This document shows, in pieces, positions 178-32,414 of a stretch of DNA of 36,168 bases; the stretch's first letter is position 1, and the number at the start of each line of letters is the position of its first letter. The notes under the pieces were generated by a model that had not been told where the DNA came from, searched no databases, and saw only the letters and a list, made by a program, of their open reading frames with translations. The stretch covers positions 1-36,168 of the forward strand of contig CALXRE010000095.1 of the NCBI GenBank assembly GCA_944390645.1, given 5' to 3'. This DNA comes from an uncultured Alphaproteobacteria bacterium (GTDB lineage: Bacteria > Pseudomonadota > Alphaproteobacteria > CACZRW01). Position numbers and translations under genes: made by a program.

Positions 178-1488
178 TTAAAGAATAAATCTTGCTAAAT
201 CACTGTTTTTATTCAAAGAACTTACTTTTTCTTTAACTGTCTCTGCGGTGATTGTTTCTTTGCTCCCTGCTTTTTCTGAAGCGTTAAAACTAATATCTTC
301 TAAAAGCCTTTCTAAAATAGTGTGGAGACGACGAGCTCCTATATTTTCTACACTTTGATTCATTTCGGCAGCGAAACGAGCAACTTCTACAATAGCATCA
401 GGCGTGATCTCTAAAGTTACGCCTTCCGTAGCAAGCAAAGCTTTATATTGAACAATAAGATTCGCTTCCGGTTCAGTTAAAATACGAACAAAATCTTCTT
501 GAGTTAAAGCATCAAGTTCTACTCTGATTGGTAACCTGCCTTGTAATTCAGGAAGTAAATCCGATGGCTTTGATAAATGAAAAGCTCCAGAAGTAATAAA
601 TAAAATATGATTAGTATTTACTGTTCCATATTTCGTACTTACGGTTGTACCTTCAATTAAAGGTAAAAGATCCCTTTGAACTCCTTCTCGTGAAACGTTA
701 CCTCTAACATGACCATCTTCTGTACCAGTTACTTTATCTATTTCATCTAGAAAAACTATTCCATTGTTTTCTACTGCTTGAATCGCGTTTTTCTTAATCA
801 AATCTTCATCCAAAAGCTTATCACTTTCTTCGGCTAATAAAAGTTCATAAGAATCTTTTACTTTTACAGTTCGTTTCTTATAGTTAGTACTTCCTTTACC
901 CAAAATATCTCCAAGACTTATCATTCCTACTTGAGAACCAGGCATACCAGGAATATCAAATGTCGGAAAACTATTTCCTGAATTGTCTATCAAAGAAATC
1001 TCTATTTCCTTATCATCAAGTTCTCCATTCCTGAGCATCGTACGAAATTTTTGCCTGGTTTCATTTGACGCACTCTCTCCTACTAGAGCTGTTATAACTC
1101 GTTCTTCTGCGTAAACTTCAGCTTTAGCTTTAACTCCTTTACGCATGCTCTCTCGAGTCATTTTTAACGAAACATCTAATAAGTCTCTTATAATGCTTTC
1201 AACATCTCTACCAACATAACCTATTTCTGTAAACTTCGTTGCTTCAACTTTAATAAAAGGTGCTTGAGCTAGCTTCGCTAAACGACGGGCTATCTCTGTC
1301 TTGCCAACTCCTGTAGGCCCTATCATTAAAATGTTCTTCGGTATAACTTCTTCCTTTAATTCAGGTGAAAGTTGCTGACGTCTCCAACGATTGCGTAATG
1401 CTATCGCTACTGCTCTTTTGGCTTCATGTTGACCGACAATAAAACGATCAAGCTCTGATACTATTTCTCGGGGGCTGAAAAATGTCAT
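178..1488 (-). CDS. hslU: HslU, ATPase subunit of the HslVU protease
   Basis: AAA+ unfoldase that feeds substrates to the HslV peptidase in the cytoplasm (ClpYQ). The protein starts [16 protein letters not shown], the family N-terminus. Walker A is GPTGVGKT at residues 57-64, Walker B contains VFLDEID, and the C-terminus LARFIL is the tail that docks into HslV. The length of 436 residues is normal for the family. A longer frame begins at 1527 inside hslV, but the ATG at 1488 is preferred: it matches the family N-terminus, has GAGGAA just upstream, and overlaps the hslV TGA by 4 bases (ATGA). This suggests translational coupling in a two-gene operon. Confidence 0.97.
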
Positions 1489-2027
1489 ATTTCCTCTATT
1501 ACTATATTTCCATTGGTGTAAATACAAATATCTCCGGCTATCTTTAATGCTCTTAAAGCTATATCTCTAGCTTCTAAGCCTTCGATGTCTTTTAACGCTC
1601 TAGCTGCCGCAAGAGCATATGGTCCTCCAGAGCCTATCCCTATAAGACCATCTTCTGGTTCCATTACATCGCCGTTACCAGATAAAATAAATGAAACTTC
1701 CTTGTCTGCTACAGCCATCATGGCTTCTAATTTCCTTAAATATCTATCCGTTCGCCAGTCCTTTGCTAGCTCTACGCACGCTCGTGTCAAATTGCCTGAA
1801 TGTTTCTCTAGTTTGCTTTCTAATCTTTCAAATAATGTAAACGCATCTGCTGTCGCTCCTGCAAAACCTGAAATAACTTTTCCTCCTCCTAAACGCCTAA
1901 CTTTTACTGCGTTCGATTTTAAAACCGTATTCCCAAAAGTTACTTGTCCATCACCTGCTATAACTACTTTGTCTCCTTTGCGAACTGAAAGAATAGTCGT
2001 TCCTCTCCATGTTAAGGCCTCTGTCAT
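1485..2027 (-). CDS. hslV: HslV, peptidase subunit of the HslVU protease
   Basis: Threonine peptidase related to proteasome beta subunits; it forms the double-hexamer chamber capped by HslU. The motif [21 protein letters not shown] is the family signature. The catalytic threonine should be T10 after removal of a nine-residue propeptide (MTEALTWRG). This is longer than in E. coli HslV, where only Met precedes the Thr. Total length is 180 residues. The ribosome site AAGGATT lies upstream of ATG 2027. It is the first gene of the hslVU operon, preceded by a heat-shock type promoter. Confidence 0.97.
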
Positions 2028-2060
2028 TTTTTAATCCTTTGCTTTTTATTACTATATATC

Positions 2061-2142: not shown

Positions 2143-2517
2143 ATGTACGATAAAAATAATATCTTTGCTAAATTCTTAAACGGAGAAATTAAAGTACAAA
2201 AAATATACGAGGATGAATATGCTATCGCTTTTTATGATATAAATCCTCAAGCTCCTATCCATGTCTTGGTAATCCCAAAAGGTGAATTCTCTTCCTTCGA
2301 TGACTTCTCTGCTAATGCTTCTGATCAAGAAATCGCCGGTTATATAAGAGCTATCGGTAAAGTATCTCGAAATCTTAAAATTGAAAAAGATGGTTATAGA
2401 CTCCTTGTTAATGTCGGTATGAATGCAGGTCAAGAAGTTCCTCATCTTCATACTCATGTCTTTGCTGGAACTAAACTAGGAAAAATGATTTCGGTGGATA
2501 ACTCTTCGAAAAGATAA
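2143..2517 (+). CDS. HIT family nucleotide hydrolase/transferase (HinT-like)
   Basis: Small histidine-triad protein of 124 residues. The triad is H101-L-H103-T-H105 in PHLHTHVFAG, and the earlier NPQAPIHVLVIPK segment (about residues 34-46) is typical of the HinT branch, which hydrolyses purine nucleoside phosphoramidates such as AMP-lysine. An AGAGGT ribosome site precedes ATG 2143. It stands alone on the plus strand. Its last 42 bases overlap the 3' end of comM on the other strand. The residues past GKMISVD are an unconserved tail, so the overlap may be a recent run-on. The physiological substrate cannot be told from sequence. Confidence 0.93.
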   Translation: MYDKNNIFAKFLNGEIKVQKIYEDEYAIAFYDINPQAPIHVLVIPKGEFSSFDDFSANASDQEIAGYIRAIGKVSRNLKIEKDGYRLLVNVGMNAGQEVPHLHTHVFAGTKLGKMISVDNSSKR

Positions 2518-3993
2518 TGCTTCCGCTATATGAGGAGCTCGAACCTTTTCTTCCATACCTAAATCTGCAATCGTTCTCGCAACTCTTAAAACCCTATTGT
2601 ATCCTCGAGCTGAAAGCTTTAATTGTTCCGCTGCTGTAATTAATAATTTTTCTCCTTCTGAATCAGGATGAGAAAACTCTTCTAATATTTCTCCATCTGC
2701 TTCAGAGTTCCTTGATATTTTACTACCTTTATAGCGAGATATTTGAAGAGAAACAGCACAAAAAACTCTCTTAGCTATTTCTGCTGATGTCTCTGTAGAA
2801 CTACTATTTGTCATATCCCAAGGCGGAACAGATGGAACCTCTATATGCATATCTATTCGATCCAATAATGGTCCAGATATCTTTGATTGATATTCTTCTC
2901 CACACTTAGGTGCTCGTGAACATTCTTGGCCTGGAGTCCCTAAATATCCGCAACGACATGGATTCATCGCAGCAACTAATTGAAACTTCGCTGGATAACT
3001 AACATGTAAATTTGCTCTGGATATTGAAATACTCCCTGTTTCCAAAGGTTGACGTAAAGCCTCTAATGCTGAACGTTGAAACTCTGGAAGCTCATCTAAA
3101 AATAATACCCCTTTATGTGCTAAAGATACTTCTCCTGGCTTAGCTTTATTGCCTCCTCCTACTAGCGAAACCATAGACGCAGAATGATGCGGAGAACGAT
3201 ATGGCCTATTAGAAACTAAACGACCTTCTTTAATCATACCTGCTATGGAATGAATCATGCTTACTTCTAAAATCTCCTTAGATGTTAGTGCCGGTAATAA
3301 AGAAGGAAGACGCGAAGCAAGCATCGATTTTCCTGCTCCTGGTGGACCTATTAATAAAAGATTATGACCTCCTGCTGCCGCAATCTCTAGTGCCCTTTTC
3401 GCACTTTCTTGCCCTTTAATGTCTTTTATATCTAAAAAACTAGTATTTACTTCTGGACTCAATTTCTCTGGATAGGGAAGGGTGCATAATCCTTTAAAAT
3501 GATTTATAAGCTCTAATAAACTAGAAGCAGCTAAAATATTGCTAATACCAGACCATGCTGCTTCTGAACCTTGACTAAAAGGACAAATAAATCCTTGATT
3601 TAGAGAATTAGCAAAAATAGCTGCCGGTAAAATACCTGTAACTCCAGAAATCGTTCCATCTAATCCTAATTCTCCCATAATTGTAAAACTAGAAACAGAT
3701 CTCTCCGGTATAATCTCCATTGCTGAAAGTAAACCTAAGGCTATTGGTAAATCAAAATGACTCCCTTCCTTAACAATATTTGCTGGGGCTAAATTAACTG
3801 TTATTCTTTTCGGTGGTAATGAAAGTCCTAATCCACTTAACGCAGATCTTACTCTTTCTCTGCTCTCTGCAACCGCTTTGTCTGCTAACCCAACTATCGT
3901 AAAAGACGGTAAACCATTGGCTATTTGAACTTCAACTCTAACTGGAAGTACTTCTATACCTTGAAACGAAACTGTGTAAACTCTAGATAACAT
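2476..3993 (-). CDS. comM: ComM/YifB family AAA+ ATPase (Mg-chelatase-like)
   Basis: ComM is a hexameric helicase known to extend branch migration during natural transformation in gammaproteobacteria; homologues also occur in species not known to be competent. There is an N-terminal Lon-protease-like fold domain (about residues 20-170), Walker A GPPGAGKS at 216-223, Walker B VLFLDELPEF, and a cysteine cluster CRCGYLG..C....KC that is probably a metal site. The family C-terminal domain ends RRVIHRN. Length 505 is normal. The ATG follows directly on the TAA of the upstream lipoprotein gene with no clear ribosome site, so it is probably translationally coupled as the last gene of the rsmI operon. 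Confidence 0.93.
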   Translation of the reverse strand: MLSRVYTVSFQGIEVLPVRVEVQIANGLPSFTIVGLADKAVAESRERVRSALSGLGLSLPPKRITVNLAPANIVKEGSHFDLPIALGLLSAMEIIPERSVSSFTIMGELGLDGTISGVTGILPAAIFANSLNQGFICPFSQGSEAAWSGISNILAASSLLELINHFKGLCTLPYPEKLSPEVNTSFLDIKDIKGQESAKRALEIAAAGGHNLLLIGPPGAGKSMLASRLPSLLPALTSKEILEVSMIHSIAGMIKEGRLVSNRPYRSPHHSASMVSLVGGGNKAKPGEVSLAHKGVLFLDELPEFQRSALEALRQPLETGSISISRANLHVSYPAKFQLVAAMNPCRCGYLGTPGQECSRAPKCGEEYQSKISGPLLDRIDMHIEVPSVPPWDMTNSSSTETSAEIAKRVFCAVSLQISRYKGSKISRNSEADGEILEEFSHPDSEGEKLLITAAEQLKLSARGYNRVLRVARTIADLGMEEKVRAPHIAEALSFRRVIHRNHFS

Positions 3994-22455: not shown

Positions 22456-24210
22456 TTAAAGTAAAAGGGCTATTCCTTGAGAGTTATACATAAGTGCTTT
22501 TACTCCTGATCTCCTTAAAAGATCTTCGTTAATTAGATGCTTATCTTTTAGCTCTAGTCTATACTTATCTTTCCCTAGTGATGTTGTTGTTAGTACGTTG
22601 GATTCTCCTCCTAAACCTTCTATAACCTCTTTTGAAAAAGCGATCTCTTTAGAATAGGTGTTCTCTTCTTCTGTTTCATTCTCTATCTTTAAATAGGCTT
22701 CCATATCACTCTTGAGATTCTCTGATAAAGTACCAAAAATAGCTTGAATGTTATTCCCTATCTCTACAACTCCACTTGCTCCAAGTGACTTTAAGCGTTC
22801 TTTGTTTACTTTGCTCGTCTCTTTAACCCCTAAACGTAAACGCGTGATACAGGCATCTAATGAAAGAATGTTATCTTTACCTCCAAAAGCTTGAACTAAA
22901 CTTCTTCCCATGCCTATCTTATCTTCCGCATTGTTCGTCGGCATAATCTCTTCACTTGTCGTAACAAGTAAATCTTCTCGACCAGGTGTCTTTAAATTTA
23001 AAAACTTAATAAGAAGACTGAAAACTATAAAATACAGTATCCCATAACAAGGTCCTAAAATAAAAACAAGCCATGGTTTTGTATCAATCGCATAGTAAAG
23101 AGCAAAATCTATTGCTCCTTGTGAAAAAGTATAGCCTATATGCGCTCCCATAAAATTCATAAGCGCAAAAGCTGTACCCGTCATAATGGCATGAACAAAA
23201 TAAAGTAGAGGAGCAGCAAATAAAAAAGCAAATTCTAAAGGCTCGGTTATCCCTGTTAAAAAGGCCGTTAAAGCCGCTGAAAACATTATACTGCCAACTT
23301 TAGTACGATTCTCTGGTTTCGCTGATCGCCAAATCGCAAACGCTGCAGCTGGAAGTCCAAACATCTTTATTAAAAAACCTCCGCTAAGAATACCTGCTGT
23401 CGGATCCCCTGCAAAAAAACGATTTATATCTCCATGAATAAGCTTTCCTGAAGGAGATATGTATTCTCCTATTTCAAAAAAGAAAGGCGCATTCCAAATA
23501 TGATGCAAACCAAAAGGAAGTAAAAGCCTCTCTATAAAACCATATGTAGCTCCAGCTAACGCTGGATTTGAATATGCTGCCCAATGGGAAAACTTGTCTA
23601 TGTAGGATTGTATAGGAGGCCAAATTATACTTAAAAATACACCTAAAGCTATCGCGGCAAAACAGGTAATAATCGGAACAAACCTTTTCCCTGCAAAAAA
23701 ACCTAAATAAGACGGAAGGTTTATACGATAATACTTGTTAAACATAAAACCAGCTATACAACCAATGAAAATACCTCCAAAAACTCCTGTCTGAATGGTC
23801 TTTATCCCATCTACTTCTGATATTATCTTCTTCGCAAACTCTGAATCATAATTAAAAAACTCTGAAAGAACACCTAAGGTACCTGTGTCCGTATACCAAA
23901 AAATATCTACCATAACTCCCATCGTAGCTTGTAAAACTAAAAAACCACAAACAGAAGCTAATGCAGCTGCTCCATCATTCTCTGTAAGACCTAGTGCTGT
24001 TCCTATCGCAAAAATAAGTGGCATGTTATCAAATATAACACTCCCACTCATCGCCATGATTTCTGGAATAACAGCTGGAATCCATTCTATCTCTGAGTTA
24101 AGAATACCTGTACCTACTCCTAAAAGAATGCCTGCAACAGGTAAAACCGCTACAGGAAGCATTAAGGATTTACCTATCTTTTGTAAAAAGCTGAATATAA
24201 CTTTCCCCAT
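22456..24210 (-). CDS. PTS sugar transporter EIICB (glucose/GlcNAc family)
   Basis: Membrane permease and phosphotransferase of a sugar PTS. The IIC domain covers about residues 1-400 (KSLMLPVAVLPVAGILLG, LLPFGLHHIWNAPFFFEIGEY, GITEPLEFAFLFAAP). IIB at about 433-505 carries phospho-cysteine C454 in LDACITRLRL. A second IIB-like unit at about 523-584 (EVIEGLGGESNVL...) has no cysteine at all and is presumably regulatory or vestigial. At 584 residues it is longer than E. coli PtsG and resembles NagE of Pseudomonas type, which pairs with a multidomain EIIA-HPr-EI as here. Substrate is probably N-acetylglucosamine, with glucose as the alternative. It follows its partner by 14 bases with AAGGAG upstream. 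Confidence 0.9.
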   Translation of the reverse strand: MGKVIFSFLQKIGKSLMLPVAVLPVAGILLGVGTGILNSEIEWIPAVIPEIMAMSGSVIFDNMPLIFAIGTALGLTENDGAAALASVCGFLVLQATMGVMVDIFWYTDTGTLGVLSEFFNYDSEFAKKIISEVDGIKTIQTGVFGGIFIGCIAGFMFNKYYRINLPSYLGFFAGKRFVPIITCFAAIALGVFLSIIWPPIQSYIDKFSHWAAYSNPALAGATYGFIERLLLPFGLHHIWNAPFFFEIGEYISPSGKLIHGDINRFFAGDPTAGILSGGFLIKMFGLPAAAFAIWRSAKPENRTKVGSIMFSAALTAFLTGITEPLEFAFLFAAPLLYFVHAIMTGTAFALMNFMGAHIGYTFSQGAIDFALYYAIDTKPWLVFILGPCYGILYFIVFSLLIKFLNLKTPGREDLLVTTSEEIMPTNNAEDKIGMGRSLVQAFGGKDNILSLDACITRLRLGVKETSKVNKERLKSLGASGVVEIGNNIQAIFGTLSENLKSDMEAYLKIENETEEENTYSKEIAFSKEVIEGLGGESNVLTTTSLGKDKYRLELKDKHLINEDLLRRSGVKALMYNSQGIALLL

Positions 24211-24224
24211 CTTTGCTCCTTATT

Positions 24225-26789
24225 TTAAAAATCCTTGAATACCTTATCTAACTTCTCTTTAATTGAACTTGCTGTATGTAACTCTAAAAGCTCTCCTGAT
24301 AAATTTGCCATATCCTTAAAATTAAGCTCTCTAATCCTTTGTTTTACTTTTGGTATTAATGGTGCTGCAACACTTAGTTCATCTACTCCTAAACCTACTA
24401 AAATAGGTACAGCTCTTAAATCTCCTGCCATACCTCCACATACACCTACAAATCTTCCATATTTGTGCGCTCCATTAACGGTCTTTTGAATCAAACGCAA
24501 TACCGCAGGATGAAAACTATCTGAAATGCTTGATAAAGCAGGATTACCCCTGTCCATCGCAAGAGTGTATTGCGTTAAATCATTCGTGCCTAAAGAAAAG
24601 AAATCCGCTATTTCTGCAAACTCTTCTATCATAATGGCGGCGGAAGGAACCTCTACCATAATCCCTATCTTTACACTTAATCCCTCTTTTAATAAACTCT
24701 TCTCTTCTTCAACTATCGCTTTCGCTTCTTCAAATTCTTTTATCCGACTAATCATTGGAAACATTATATGTAAATCACTAAAAGAGACCGCTCTCAAAAT
24801 ACCTCTTATCTGTGTACGAAAAAGTTCTGGCTTCGATAAACTTAAACGAATTCCCCTTACTCCAAGAAAAGGATTCTCTTCTTTTGCCATCTCTAAATAT
24901 GAAAGATTCTTATCTCCTCCTACATCAAGAGTTCTAATTATAAGTTTCCTATCTTTGCCAACAGCTTGTGCTATATCCTTATATACTGTCGCTTGCTCTT
25001 CCTCCGTAGGAGCTTCTTCTCGATTTAAAAACAAAAACTCTGAACGTAAAAGACCTATACCTTCTCCTCCTAACCTCAAAACTTCTTTAACATCTGTTAA
25101 ATTGCCTATATTACCTCCTACTTCTATCCGCTTACCGTCTGTCGTAATAGCTGGTTTATTCGCATCTGCAAGATTCTCCTCATAATGCTTCTTTTCTTCT
25201 GCTTGAAGCTTACTCATCTTTATAACTTCTTCCTGAGATGGATTAACTATTAAAAATCCACTTGTGCCATTGATAATGGCTTTAGTACCTTCGGGTATCT
25301 TTAAAACTTCTTCCCCAGCCCCTGTAATCGCTGGAATGCCTAATGTCCGAGCTAAAATAGAAACATGAGATGTCGAACCACCATGCGTTGTGCAAATACC
25401 AGATATCTTATCTTTCTCTAAACTTGCTGTTTCTGATGGTGTTATTTCTTCTGCTATAATTATCGAATTGTCTGGAATTAAACTAGTTCCTTCTTCCTTG
25501 CCAATTAAAATATTAACTACTCTTTTGTTGATGTCTCTTAAATCAGTCGCTCTTCCTGCTAGTAAATCATTGTTTAATCTTGTAAGATTATCTGCTTGTT
25601 CTTTGGTAACTCTATCCCATGCGTATTCAGCACTTCTTCCTTCTTTAATTAAATTATACGCTGTTTCCTTTAATTCTGGATCCGCAAGAAGTTCTTTATG
25701 GGCAAGAAAAATTTCTGCTTCATTGGCTTTTGTCTTCTTCTTCATGTCTTGATAAACTGCTTCTAATTGCTTATCTGCTTCTATAAGAGCTTTATCTAAA
25801 CGTGCCTTCTCTTCTTCAAAATTCGATGAATCATCTGAATAGGTTTTGCTAGATTCATAAAAATGATGGATAAATCCTACAGCTATACCATCTGAAGAGC
25901 CTATACCTTTAATCGTTCCAGAAAAATCCTCTGAAACATTTAATCCTGTTACTTCCCTTGTTTTACTTACTTCTTTCCCCTTATTCTCTATCTTTCCTTC
26001 TTCTCCTCCTTCCCCTAAACCGGCTTCTATAAGCGGAATTAATACAAATAGAGCTTCTTCTGAATCTTCTCCTGTAGCTTGAAGCTTAATCCTATCTTTA
26101 TACCCTATATTTAAACCCATAATCGAAACTACGCTTTTAGCATTAGCTGTCTTATCTCCTAAGATAAGTCTTATATCTGATTTAAACTTCTTTGCTTCTG
26201 ATGCTAATAAAGCTGCTGGTCTCGCATGAAAACCTGTCGGATTCGTTACTGTAATCTCCCAAGATGTTATTTCCATAGTTCTGTTAGTATCTGAAATATT
26301 TTCTTTTTCTTTAATCGTAACACTAAAAATAATGTCTTCTCCTACGGTGACTTGCTTGCTTGTTATACCTTCTATCTTTAAATCCTTATCTGGAGAACTT
26401 ACAATTATTTCTGTTAAAATACTCTTGGCTCGTTGTGAAATATAATTAATATCAAAGGATATTAAAGGATCTCCTTTTTCTACCTCTTTCCCTTCTTCCG
26501 TCTTTAAATGAAAACCTTCTCCCTTTAAATTTACAGTATCAAGACCGATATGCATTAAAACATCTATTCCTTTTTCACTTCTTATCGTAATCGCATGATG
26601 TGATGGATGAATGTTCGTAACTTTACCTGAACAAGGAGCTTTTAAAATATCACTCGTCGGATCTATTGATATACCATCTCCTACTAATTTTTGTGAAAAA
26701 ACTAAATCTGGAACCTCCTTAAGATCAACTGTATGCCCACTTAATGGGGCGTATAAAACCAAAATTGGTTCTTTGGTATCTTTCGTCAT
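24225..26789 (-). CDS. PTS EIIA-HPr-EI fusion protein (NagF-like)
   Basis: Three soluble PTS proteins in one chain of 854 residues. EIIA of the glucose type covers about 8-155, with phospho-His H80 in VLMHIGLDTVNLKG. HPr covers about 173-258, with H188 in TNPTGFHARPAA; the regulatory serine area reads AKSVVSIMGL. EI covers about 290-854, with H475 in GGSTSHVSILAR, then the PEP-binding barrel (GIGLLRSEFLF, FSLGTNDLTQYTLAMDR, GVCGGMAGD). Phosphate from PEP can thus flow within one protein to C454 of the adjacent EIICB. Ribosome site AAGGAG. The architecture matches NagF of Pseudomonas. Genes for downstream GlcNAc catabolism (nagA, nagB) are not in the window. Confidence 0.92.
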   Translation of the reverse strand: MTKDTKEPILVLYAPLSGHTVDLKEVPDLVFSQKLVGDGISIDPTSDILKAPCSGKVTNIHPSHHAITIRSEKGIDVLMHIGLDTVNLKGEGFHLKTEEGKEVEKGDPLISFDINYISQRAKSILTEIIVSSPDKDLKIEGITSKQVTVGEDIIFSVTIKEKENISDTNRTMEITSWEITVTNPTGFHARPAALLASEAKKFKSDIRLILGDKTANAKSVVSIMGLNIGYKDRIKLQATGEDSEEALFVLIPLIEAGLGEGGEEGKIENKGKEVSKTREVTGLNVSEDFSGTIKGIGSSDGIAVGFIHHFYESSKTYSDDSSNFEEEKARLDKALIEADKQLEAVYQDMKKKTKANEAEIFLAHKELLADPELKETAYNLIKEGRSAEYAWDRVTKEQADNLTRLNNDLLAGRATDLRDINKRVVNILIGKEEGTSLIPDNSIIIAEEITPSETASLEKDKISGICTTHGGSTSHVSILARTLGIPAITGAGEEVLKIPEGTKAIINGTSGFLIVNPSQEEVIKMSKLQAEEKKHYEENLADANKPAITTDGKRIEVGGNIGNLTDVKEVLRLGGEGIGLLRSEFLFLNREEAPTEEEQATVYKDIAQAVGKDRKLIIRTLDVGGDKNLSYLEMAKEENPFLGVRGIRLSLSKPELFRTQIRGILRAVSFSDLHIMFPMISRIKEFEEAKAIVEEEKSLLKEGLSVKIGIMVEVPSAAIMIEEFAEIADFFSLGTNDLTQYTLAMDRGNPALSSISDSFHPAVLRLIQKTVNGAHKYGRFVGVCGGMAGDLRAVPILVGLGVDELSVAAPLIPKVKQRIRELNFKDMANLSGELLELHTASSIKEKLDKVFKDF

Positions 26790-31420: not shown

Positions 31421-31439
31421 TAATCTAACTTTTAGATTA
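31421..31439 (-). repeat. Inverted repeat across the nagZ stop codon
   Basis: TAATCTAA (31421-31428) and TTAGATTA (31432-31439) form a perfect 8-bp stem with a 3-base loop, and the nagZ TAA (31437-31439) is part of the stem. No T run follows directly, so it is a poor intrinsic terminator. It could stabilise the nagZ message or bind a protein. Confidence 0.4.
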
Positions 31440-32414
31440 TAATTTCATAAAAGTTTCTATCCTTCGTACGCTTTCTTCTATTCTCGAAAGTGTTATCTCT
31501 CCAGATTTTATGCAGGATTTAATCGTTTCGTTTACTATGTCTGGAAGATTAGGAGAACAAAAAGCTTGATTGCTAAATAATAAAATATCTGCTCCAGCTT
31601 GTATGGCTTTTTTTATAATCGTAGATTCTGAATAATGGTCAGATAATGCCTTCATCTGTAAATCATCTGTAATTACAACCCCTGAAAAACCTATTTTCTC
31701 TCTTAAAAGGCTATTTATTGTCAAAAAAGAAAGAGAAGATGGATACTCTTTATCTATTTTGTTGTTGAAAACATGACTAACCATAACCGCTGTTTGGGGA
31801 AATTTTTTCGTAAGATAATAATAAGGTATCAGTTCTTCTTCTTTCCAGTCAGACGAAATATCTGTAAAACCTAAATGCGTATCTGTTCTTGAACTACCAT
31901 GACCAGGAAAGTGTTTTAAAGCCGTACGAATTCCTACTTCATTATGTGCTTTGATAAATTCTGAACTATACGAAATGACTTTATTATAGTCTGAACCAAA
32001 ACTCCTTTCTTTCCCAGAAATAATGGGAGAAAGATATTCTCTGGAAATATCAACAACAGGCGAAAGATTAAAATTAAAGCCTGCAGTTTTTAATTCTGTT
32101 GCCATTTGAAAATAAAGATCATGAGCCGTTGATAAAGAATATTGAGCGGAAACTTCTTTGGCAGAAGGATAATTTGTATAGCCATTACTCCTTTCTAAAC
32201 GTTGAACAAACCCGCCTTCTTGATCAATAGCTCGTAAAATATTGGAAAATTTACTTGTAAGCTCTCTTATCTGCGAAGGATCTTCTAAATTATTACGAAA
32301 AAAACATACTCCGCCTAACTTATTATTATGGTAATACTCTAATGTTGTTCGGAAATCAGTGTTCTGAAAACCTACCATAAGCATTAAAGAAATTTTTGAA
32401 TCTAAAGACAGCAT
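31437..32414 (-). CDS. nagZ: Glycoside hydrolase family 3, beta-N-acetylhexosaminidase (NagZ-like)
   Basis: Cleaves GlcNAc from GlcNAc-anhydroMurNAc peptides during cell-wall recycling. Family motifs are AIDQEGGFVQRL (62-73), KHFPGHGSSRTDTH (167-180) with the NagZ-type Asp178-His180 acid/base dyad, and ITDDLQM with nucleophile D250. Length 325 and no signal peptide fit a cytoplasmic NagZ. The ATG follows the TAG of the upstream gene without a gap and lacks a clear ribosome site, so coupling is likely. In many alphaproteobacteria scpA-scpB follow nagZ; here they do not. Confidence 0.92.
   Translation of the reverse strand: MLSLDSKISLMLMVGFQNTDFRTTLEYYHNNKLGGVCFFRNNLEDPSQIRELTSKFSNILRAIDQEGGFVQRLERSNGYTNYPSAKEVSAQYSLSTAHDLYFQMATELKTAGFNFNLSPVVDISREYLSPIISGKERSFGSDYNKVISYSSEFIKAHNEVGIRTALKHFPGHGSSRTDTHLGFTDISSDWKEEELIPYYYLTKKFPQTAVMVSHVFNNKIDKEYPSSLSFLTINSLLREKIGFSGVVITDDLQMKALSDHYSESTIIKKAIQAGADILLFSNQAFCSPNLPDIVNETIKSCIKSGEITLSRIEESVRRIETFMKL

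Follow-up and report, generated by a model that had tools for sequence, protein, structure and literature searches.

The stretch of DNA analysed here (36,168 nucleotides, in the following termed the window) harbours two adjacent PTS genes on its minus strand (Table 1): one encodes a permease of the order IIC-IIB-IIB', and the other, 14 bases upstream, a fused donor (MTP). Genes similar to CckA and FlhB neighbour this PTS operon and point to an alphaproteobacterium.

Table 1. Features of the PTS locus and of the free-standing IIB' genes (positions refer to the window unless another locus is named)
Feature	Position	Strand	Basis
EIICB-IIB' permease, PtsG-like, 584 aa	22456..24210	-	TIGR02002, 661.5 bits, above cut-off
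IIC membrane domain, residues 13-345	23176..24174	-	PF02378, E 1.2e-79
Catalytic IIB domain, residues 434-508	22687..22911	-	PF00367, TIGR00826; model Z 17.1 to 3bp3
Codon of active-site C454 (DACITRLR)	22849..22851	-	Translation; invariant in alignment A1
Linker, residues 509-522, flexible, almost unconserved	22645..22686	-	pLDDT <50, 0-20 % identity
IIB', residues 523-584 + stop	22456..22644	-	HMM, shuffle control, AF2, VIA-align
IIA-HPr-EI fusion (MTP)	24225..26789	-	PF00358, PF00381, PF05524, PF00391, PF02896
Free-standing IIB', ~95 residues	L242, 4506-4790	-	
Free-standing IIB', ~95 residues	L243, from 8530	+	
Free-standing IIB', ~95 residues	L244, 4412-4699	-	
Free-standing IIB', ~95 residues	L245, from 4674	-	

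The permease and its fused donor

The first-pass annotation had labelled the permease NagE. Judged by profile scores it is PtsG-like instead, since it passes the cut-off of the glucose EIICB model TIGR02002 (661.5 vs. 591.8) and fails that of the GlcNAc-specific NagE equivalog TIGR01998 (472.9 vs. 553.2); no match to nagA (TIGR00221) above cut-off was obtained in the five genomes searched, including the window's own (G000, 87 % complete). Fructose-specific permease models are likewise absent from the 20 NCBIfam matches of the protein, IIC and IIB belonging to PF02378 and PF00367 rather than to the fructose family. The assignment of an active IIB containing C454 agrees with the translation, which places this invariant cysteine in the first IIB domain. 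An ORF resembling beta-N-acetylhexosaminidases (31437-32414, minus strand; NF003740 172 bits, cut-off 207) is located 4.6 kb past the PTS operon, its presence in the window contrasting with the result of the nagA search in the genome.

MTP displays the motifs HIGLDT (at position 80), GFHARPA (186) and GGSTSH (470), which we take to be the histidine sites of IIA, HPr and EI, respectively. An EI N-terminal domain was found only in MTP, both in the window's genome and in that of the relative G002 (each ~87 % complete); thus, these two genes can contain every step between PEP and sugar.

A second, shortened IIB domain at the C-terminus

Residues 523-584 of the permease represent a second, shortened IIB domain of the glucose type (IIB'), devoid of cysteine and of the last helix. 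Most of this had been proposed beforehand from the letters alone: the segment is IIB-like, carries GG..N near its start (G534, G535 and N538 are nearly invariant among the 11 rows of alignment A1) and LRRSGVKAL near its end (the terminus reads LLRRSGVKAL...IALLL), and contains zero cysteines, hence lacking the usual phosphate acceptor. The picture of a second IIB-like domain has to be amended only with respect to its length, since the last IIB helix is missing. With the tail alone, PF00367 yields 18.1 bits (E 0.0019), which is below the 27-bit cut-off; TIGR01998 aligns to it at model positions 391-455 of 475 with an E-value of 1.9e-5. A profile of IIB domains built without the window's clade and without any IIB' scores the tail with 21.8 bits, compared to 8.9 bits for the best shuffled tail (2,000 shuffles, 1,754 scored), which excludes a chance similarity.

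The AlphaFold2 model of the tail reaches a pLDDT of 83.8 overall (at least 90 in 53 of 76 residues) and predicts the order helix-strand-strand-helix-strand-strand; it is not independent of homology, because the input alignment of 67 homologous tails holds clear IIB relatives. In the structure comparison (VIA-align), the top six rows are all PTS IIB chains (Z 5.8-7.6, rmsd 1.5-3.1, 58-63 residues), the best being 3bp8_C (Z 7.6, rmsd 1.5 over 58 residues). The first row thereafter is unrelated (Z 4.2), as are the folds of ribosome recycling factor and of the arginine repressor C-terminal domain (Z ≤4.2), and the NMR structure of IIB (1iba) attains a Z of only 3.6. The predicted fold is thus IIB-like, as the first-pass annotation had anticipated, and clear of the rows at Z 4.2, though a Z below 8 may mean a common arrangement only, according to the comparison tool's own warning. 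Foldseek returned no match to the tail model under E 0.001, PTS IIB domains ranking first at 1.4e-3 or worse. In a tandem model of IIB and IIB' (pLDDT 91.0, pTM 0.55) both domains are predicted to be well folded, their relative placement not being firm; pLDDT drops below 50 at model residues 84-91, corresponding to linker residues 514-521 of the protein.

Within the window's clade, the tail is kept in an open frame in all seven members aligned (window included) with a length of 76-83 residues. A relative (G001) shows 70 % identity. The clade's IIB' rows have largely lost TRLR and lack the last helix, and IIB' diverges much more rapidly than do IIB and IIC. Between the window and its congener G002, identity amounts to 90 % for IIC, 85 % for IIB, 14 % for the linker and 37 % for IIB', with pN/pS values of 0.07 (IIC), 0.12 (IIB) and 0.55 (IIB'). 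Over seven pairs, IIB' is 26-65 % identical as compared to 0-20 % for the adjacent linker, arguing against recent pseudogene decay as the whole story; the corresponding pN/pS values (IIB' 0.24-0.57, IIB 0.08-0.39, IIC 0.06-0.18) are rough and dN/dS is of limited use, because the majority of pairs have reached saturation at synonymous sites. Random decay among relatives, the outcome that would have spoken against the original proposal, is therefore not what the in-frame tails display, albeit the constraint suggested by these comparisons is weak. Overall, IIB' of the window permease is a real, conserved and non-catalytic domain. In one further locus (L014; G006, contig C1, 559300-560690) the match to the EIICB has its two IIC pieces in different frames, as judged by their coordinates, and a frameshift in gene or assembly may exist.

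Loss of the cysteine can be followed across 58 clustered IIB' domains, in 51 of which the TRLR motif is readable. Two positions ahead of this motif (T-2), all 51 partner IIBs possess cysteine, compared to alanine in 46 and cysteine in one (L233) of the 51 IIB' domains. A cysteine occupies T-3 in nine, and 41 are cysteine-free at both positions, while both arginines of TRLR are kept in most of the 51. From the conserved asparagine to the second arginine, 80 of 82 IIBs show a distance of 12 residues (the remaining two not conforming to the pattern), as opposed to 13 in 46 and 12 in seven of 53 readable IIB' domains. With a spacing of 13, the nine T-3 cysteines stand at the usual distance from the asparagine side, with one extra residue before TRLR. 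The window tail likewise has a spacing of 13 (judged by eye, most of its TRLR being lost), and this longer loop common to IIB' and the window tail argues for an old shared duplication, i.e., for the window's IIB' being the common IIB'. A duplication private to the window lineage is unlikely on account of the shared one-residue longer loop and since the main split of the tree described below has IIB' on either side.

Distribution of IIB' and its association with MTP

The architecture IIC-IIB-IIB' is widespread across many phyla and not peculiar to the window protein. With the clade's tail region as query, a scan restricted to a single genome for each species yielded at least 531 confirmed relatives, from which 80 loci were taken, spanning cyanobacteria, Acidobacteriota, Actinomycetota, Bdellovibrionota, Myxococcota, Gemmatimonadota, Verrucomicrobiota, Elusimicrobiota, Pseudomonadota and others. 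Of these 80 loci, 79 were found to encode an EIICB with a second IIB match (one of them with two such genes; L115 being cut), a number showing breadth and not frequency, since the query itself contains IIB'. Sampling of the other phyla was uneven. A profile of IIB' tails also matches ordinary IIBs and can therefore not show IIB' to be absent from a genome.

Association with MTP was counted for 149 distinct EIICBs, 107 with IIB' and 42 without (39 plain, the other three with IIA at the C-terminus). A single frame comprising IIA and EI was found within 1,500 bases of 94 of the 107 IIB'-bearing EIICBs (93 on the same strand); a partial MTP lies beside eight more (seven cut by the end of contig or stretch, one split into two frames), four were not decidable and one is without MTP. 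By contrast, MTP adjoins only two of the 42 EIICBs without IIB'; it is missing from 19 for which each flank spans 2,600 bases or more, and the other 21 have a shorter flank devoid of PTS matches. Viewed from the donor side, 34 of 36 MTPs, hand-tallied in 68 genomes chosen for holding an EIICB, are provided with an extra IIB, 30 times fused to the adjoining EIICB and four times free-standing, the remaining two (in G204 and G095) adjoining an EIICB with a single IIB. Among 369 genomes of one class, presumably Gammaproteobacteria (that of G420), four MTPs were matched from IIA to EI, and all four are located beside an EIICB with IIB'; two of these four genomes also belong to the 68.

Several loci deviate, three of them being counter-cases to the association. 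The single-IIB EIICBs beside a fused donor are those of L234 (4822-6489, plus strand; G204), with a low-complexity linker of ~100 residues between IIC and IIB, and of L241 (2297-3721, minus strand; G095). L233 (4828-6624, plus strand; G204) encodes an EIICB with two cysteine-bearing IIBs and is without MTP in its 11.5 kb stretch; all three pattern-breaking loci originate from family f94. The EIICB with IIB' of L148 (Leptolyngbya sp. SIOISBB) is accompanied by two separate frames, one for IIA-HPr and one for EI, in place of a fused ORF.

In four genomes of family f194 (presumably Pseudomonadaceae; G643, G665, G596 and G495), a second MTP is located in a trehalose-type locus, with TreP recognized in L244 (TIGR01992) and phosphotrehalase in L242 (TIGR02403). 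In all four loci, a gene for a free-standing IIB' starts 2 bases after the stop codon of MTP (Table 1). IIB' makes up the C-terminal two thirds of this small protein, is cysteine-less, ends just past the last strand and reads VALTRVRV where IIB has ACITRLRL. The other three copies share 62-94 % identity with that of G643, and the two tested against PF00367 score 21.2 and 26.0, i.e., under the cut-off of 27. For the other 75 of the 79 sampled f194 genomes no free-standing IIB' is among the matches listed, and a plasmid search with it gave only partial matches in eight records, none covering 80 %. The strongest hint at IIB' being functionally part of the donor side comes from this spare IIB, which is encoded together with the donor rather than with the permease.

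A tree of 82 IIC-IIB sequences (midpoint root for drawing only) requires five changes for IIB' and six for MTP. An independent-pairs sign test with four pairs gave 2.6 changing the same way, 0.0 the opposite way and 1.4 without difference (p 0.25). The association of IIB' with MTP is thus broad, but few independent events stand behind it. Since the enteric-type PtsG is nested in an IIB'-rich set, joint loss of IIB' and MTP would be the simplest reading of its history; several tree rows without IIB' are long branches.

Candidate function of IIB'

FruA, the fructose permease, has the domain order IIB'-IIB-IIC. According to one recent paper (PMC6872149), a duplicated IIB' is reserved for the fructose Enzyme II, and the extra IIB of FruA is said to serve protein contacts and not phosphoryl transfer (citing Charbit 1996); another article (PMC2405797, also citing Charbit 1996) states that full FruA activity needs both IIB domains. 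FruA resembles the window permease in possessing a second IIB, said in the case of FruA to act in protein contact, and a donor (FruB) that is a fused IIA-HPr(-EI) protein, but it belongs to the fructose and the window permease to the glucose family. In the present data, glucose-type permeases from many phyla also possess the duplicated IIB', tied there to a fused IIA-HPr-EI donor, and four genomes encode it as a free protein.

Among the systems compared, a PtsG presumed to be enteric has the same IIC and IIB as the window protein (55-59 % identity) but lacks IIB', no fused donor being seen in the flanks examined. NagE/NagF-type systems (Pseudomonas, Ralstonia, Caulobacter) share the adjacency of permease and fusion, NagF/NagE of Ralstonia being described (PMC3222305) as an EI-HPr-EIIA fusion and EIIBC. 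The sampled relatives taken as members of this type have an IIB' without the standard cysteine in nearly all rows, but the type is GlcNAc-specific and more distant (36-46 % identity to the window protein). In PMC13046382, the Caulobacter NagE homologs are called the IIBC component, and in PMC13055268 NagF of Stenotrophomonas is the name of a non-PTS permease. A description of a second IIB in NagE or PtsG was not found in open PMC full text. The free-standing IIB' of family f194 agrees with that of the window in being cysteine-less, ending after the last strand and being genetically tied to MTP, but is a separate protein, the permease TreP having its own N-terminal IIB.

On balance, IIB' is probably a degenerate IIB duplicate acting, by analogy to IIB' of FruA, as a tethered docking domain for MTP. 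The decoy, docking and regulatory roles originally considered side by side would thus narrow down to docking, which appears to fit best, as IIB' tracks MTP. Following the working IIB after a flexible linker, IIB' would keep the IIB surface that recognises IIA, without accepting phosphate in the usual way. It would bind MTP, most likely via the IIA domain of the latter, and hold this bulky donor beside the permease near C454, a tether that may let the sequence PEP → EI → HPr → IIA → C454 → sugar run efficiently. We infer the binding of MTP from the genomic association. A tie between IIB' and MTP explains in a simple and testable manner why a domain unable to carry phosphate in the usual way should exist, and gives a starting point for understanding why permeases differ between fused and free PTS donors.

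The low conservation in the window's clade could also indicate a fading remnant, i.e., a domain with an ancestral function that is now under relaxed selection and nearly idle in a reduced alphaproteobacterial lineage. The elevated pN/pS and low identity of IIB' between window and G002, the largely lost TRLR and the absent last helix are in line with such a fate; considering that the frame is open in 7/7 clade members at similar tail lengths, that IIB' is better conserved than the adjacent linker even though synonymous sites are mostly saturated, and that its fold is still confidently predicted, we regard it as rather unlikely. Even so, IIB' of the window's clade, which lacks the last helix and retains little of TRLR, may have a function that is fading or has changed.

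Docking to MTP has further to be weighed against two other activities. An oligomerisation or regulator-binding module, e.g., for a repressor as in the binding of Mlc by IIB of PtsG, would suit a flexibly tethered domain and has a precedent in the solved Mlc/EIIB complex (3bp8), but would explain neither why IIB' tracks the fused donor nor why a free-standing copy follows the trehalose-type MTPs, and is considered improbable. Still less credible, and close to negligible, is a phosphoryl side-acceptor or relay operating via another residue or via a displaced cysteine where present: the T-3 cysteine in nine of 51 IIB' domains, the retention of both TRLR arginines in most of them and the standard cysteine in the second IIB of L233 would be compatible with it, but 41 of the 51 have no cysteine at T-2 or T-3, and the window's clade has little of the arginine motif, the window tail being moreover cysteine-free.

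One may speculate, with somewhat less than even confidence, on a general rule according to which a glucose-type IIA fused to HPr and EI is accompanied by an extra non-catalytic IIB, either in cis on the permease or in trans as a small protein encoded next to the donor on its downstream side, the enteric PtsG having lost IIB' on its move to a free IIA. If true, this would parallel the fructose family, a spare IIB then having been adopted more than once as a means to tether a bulky donor.

Tandem IIB domains are also encoded apart from IIC. In L018 (G107), three ORFs of 179-181 aa (442-978, minus strand; 1489-2031, plus strand; 2292-2834, minus strand) lie within 2.5 kb of each other, and each consists of two tandem IIBs, both with cysteine (DNCITRLR).
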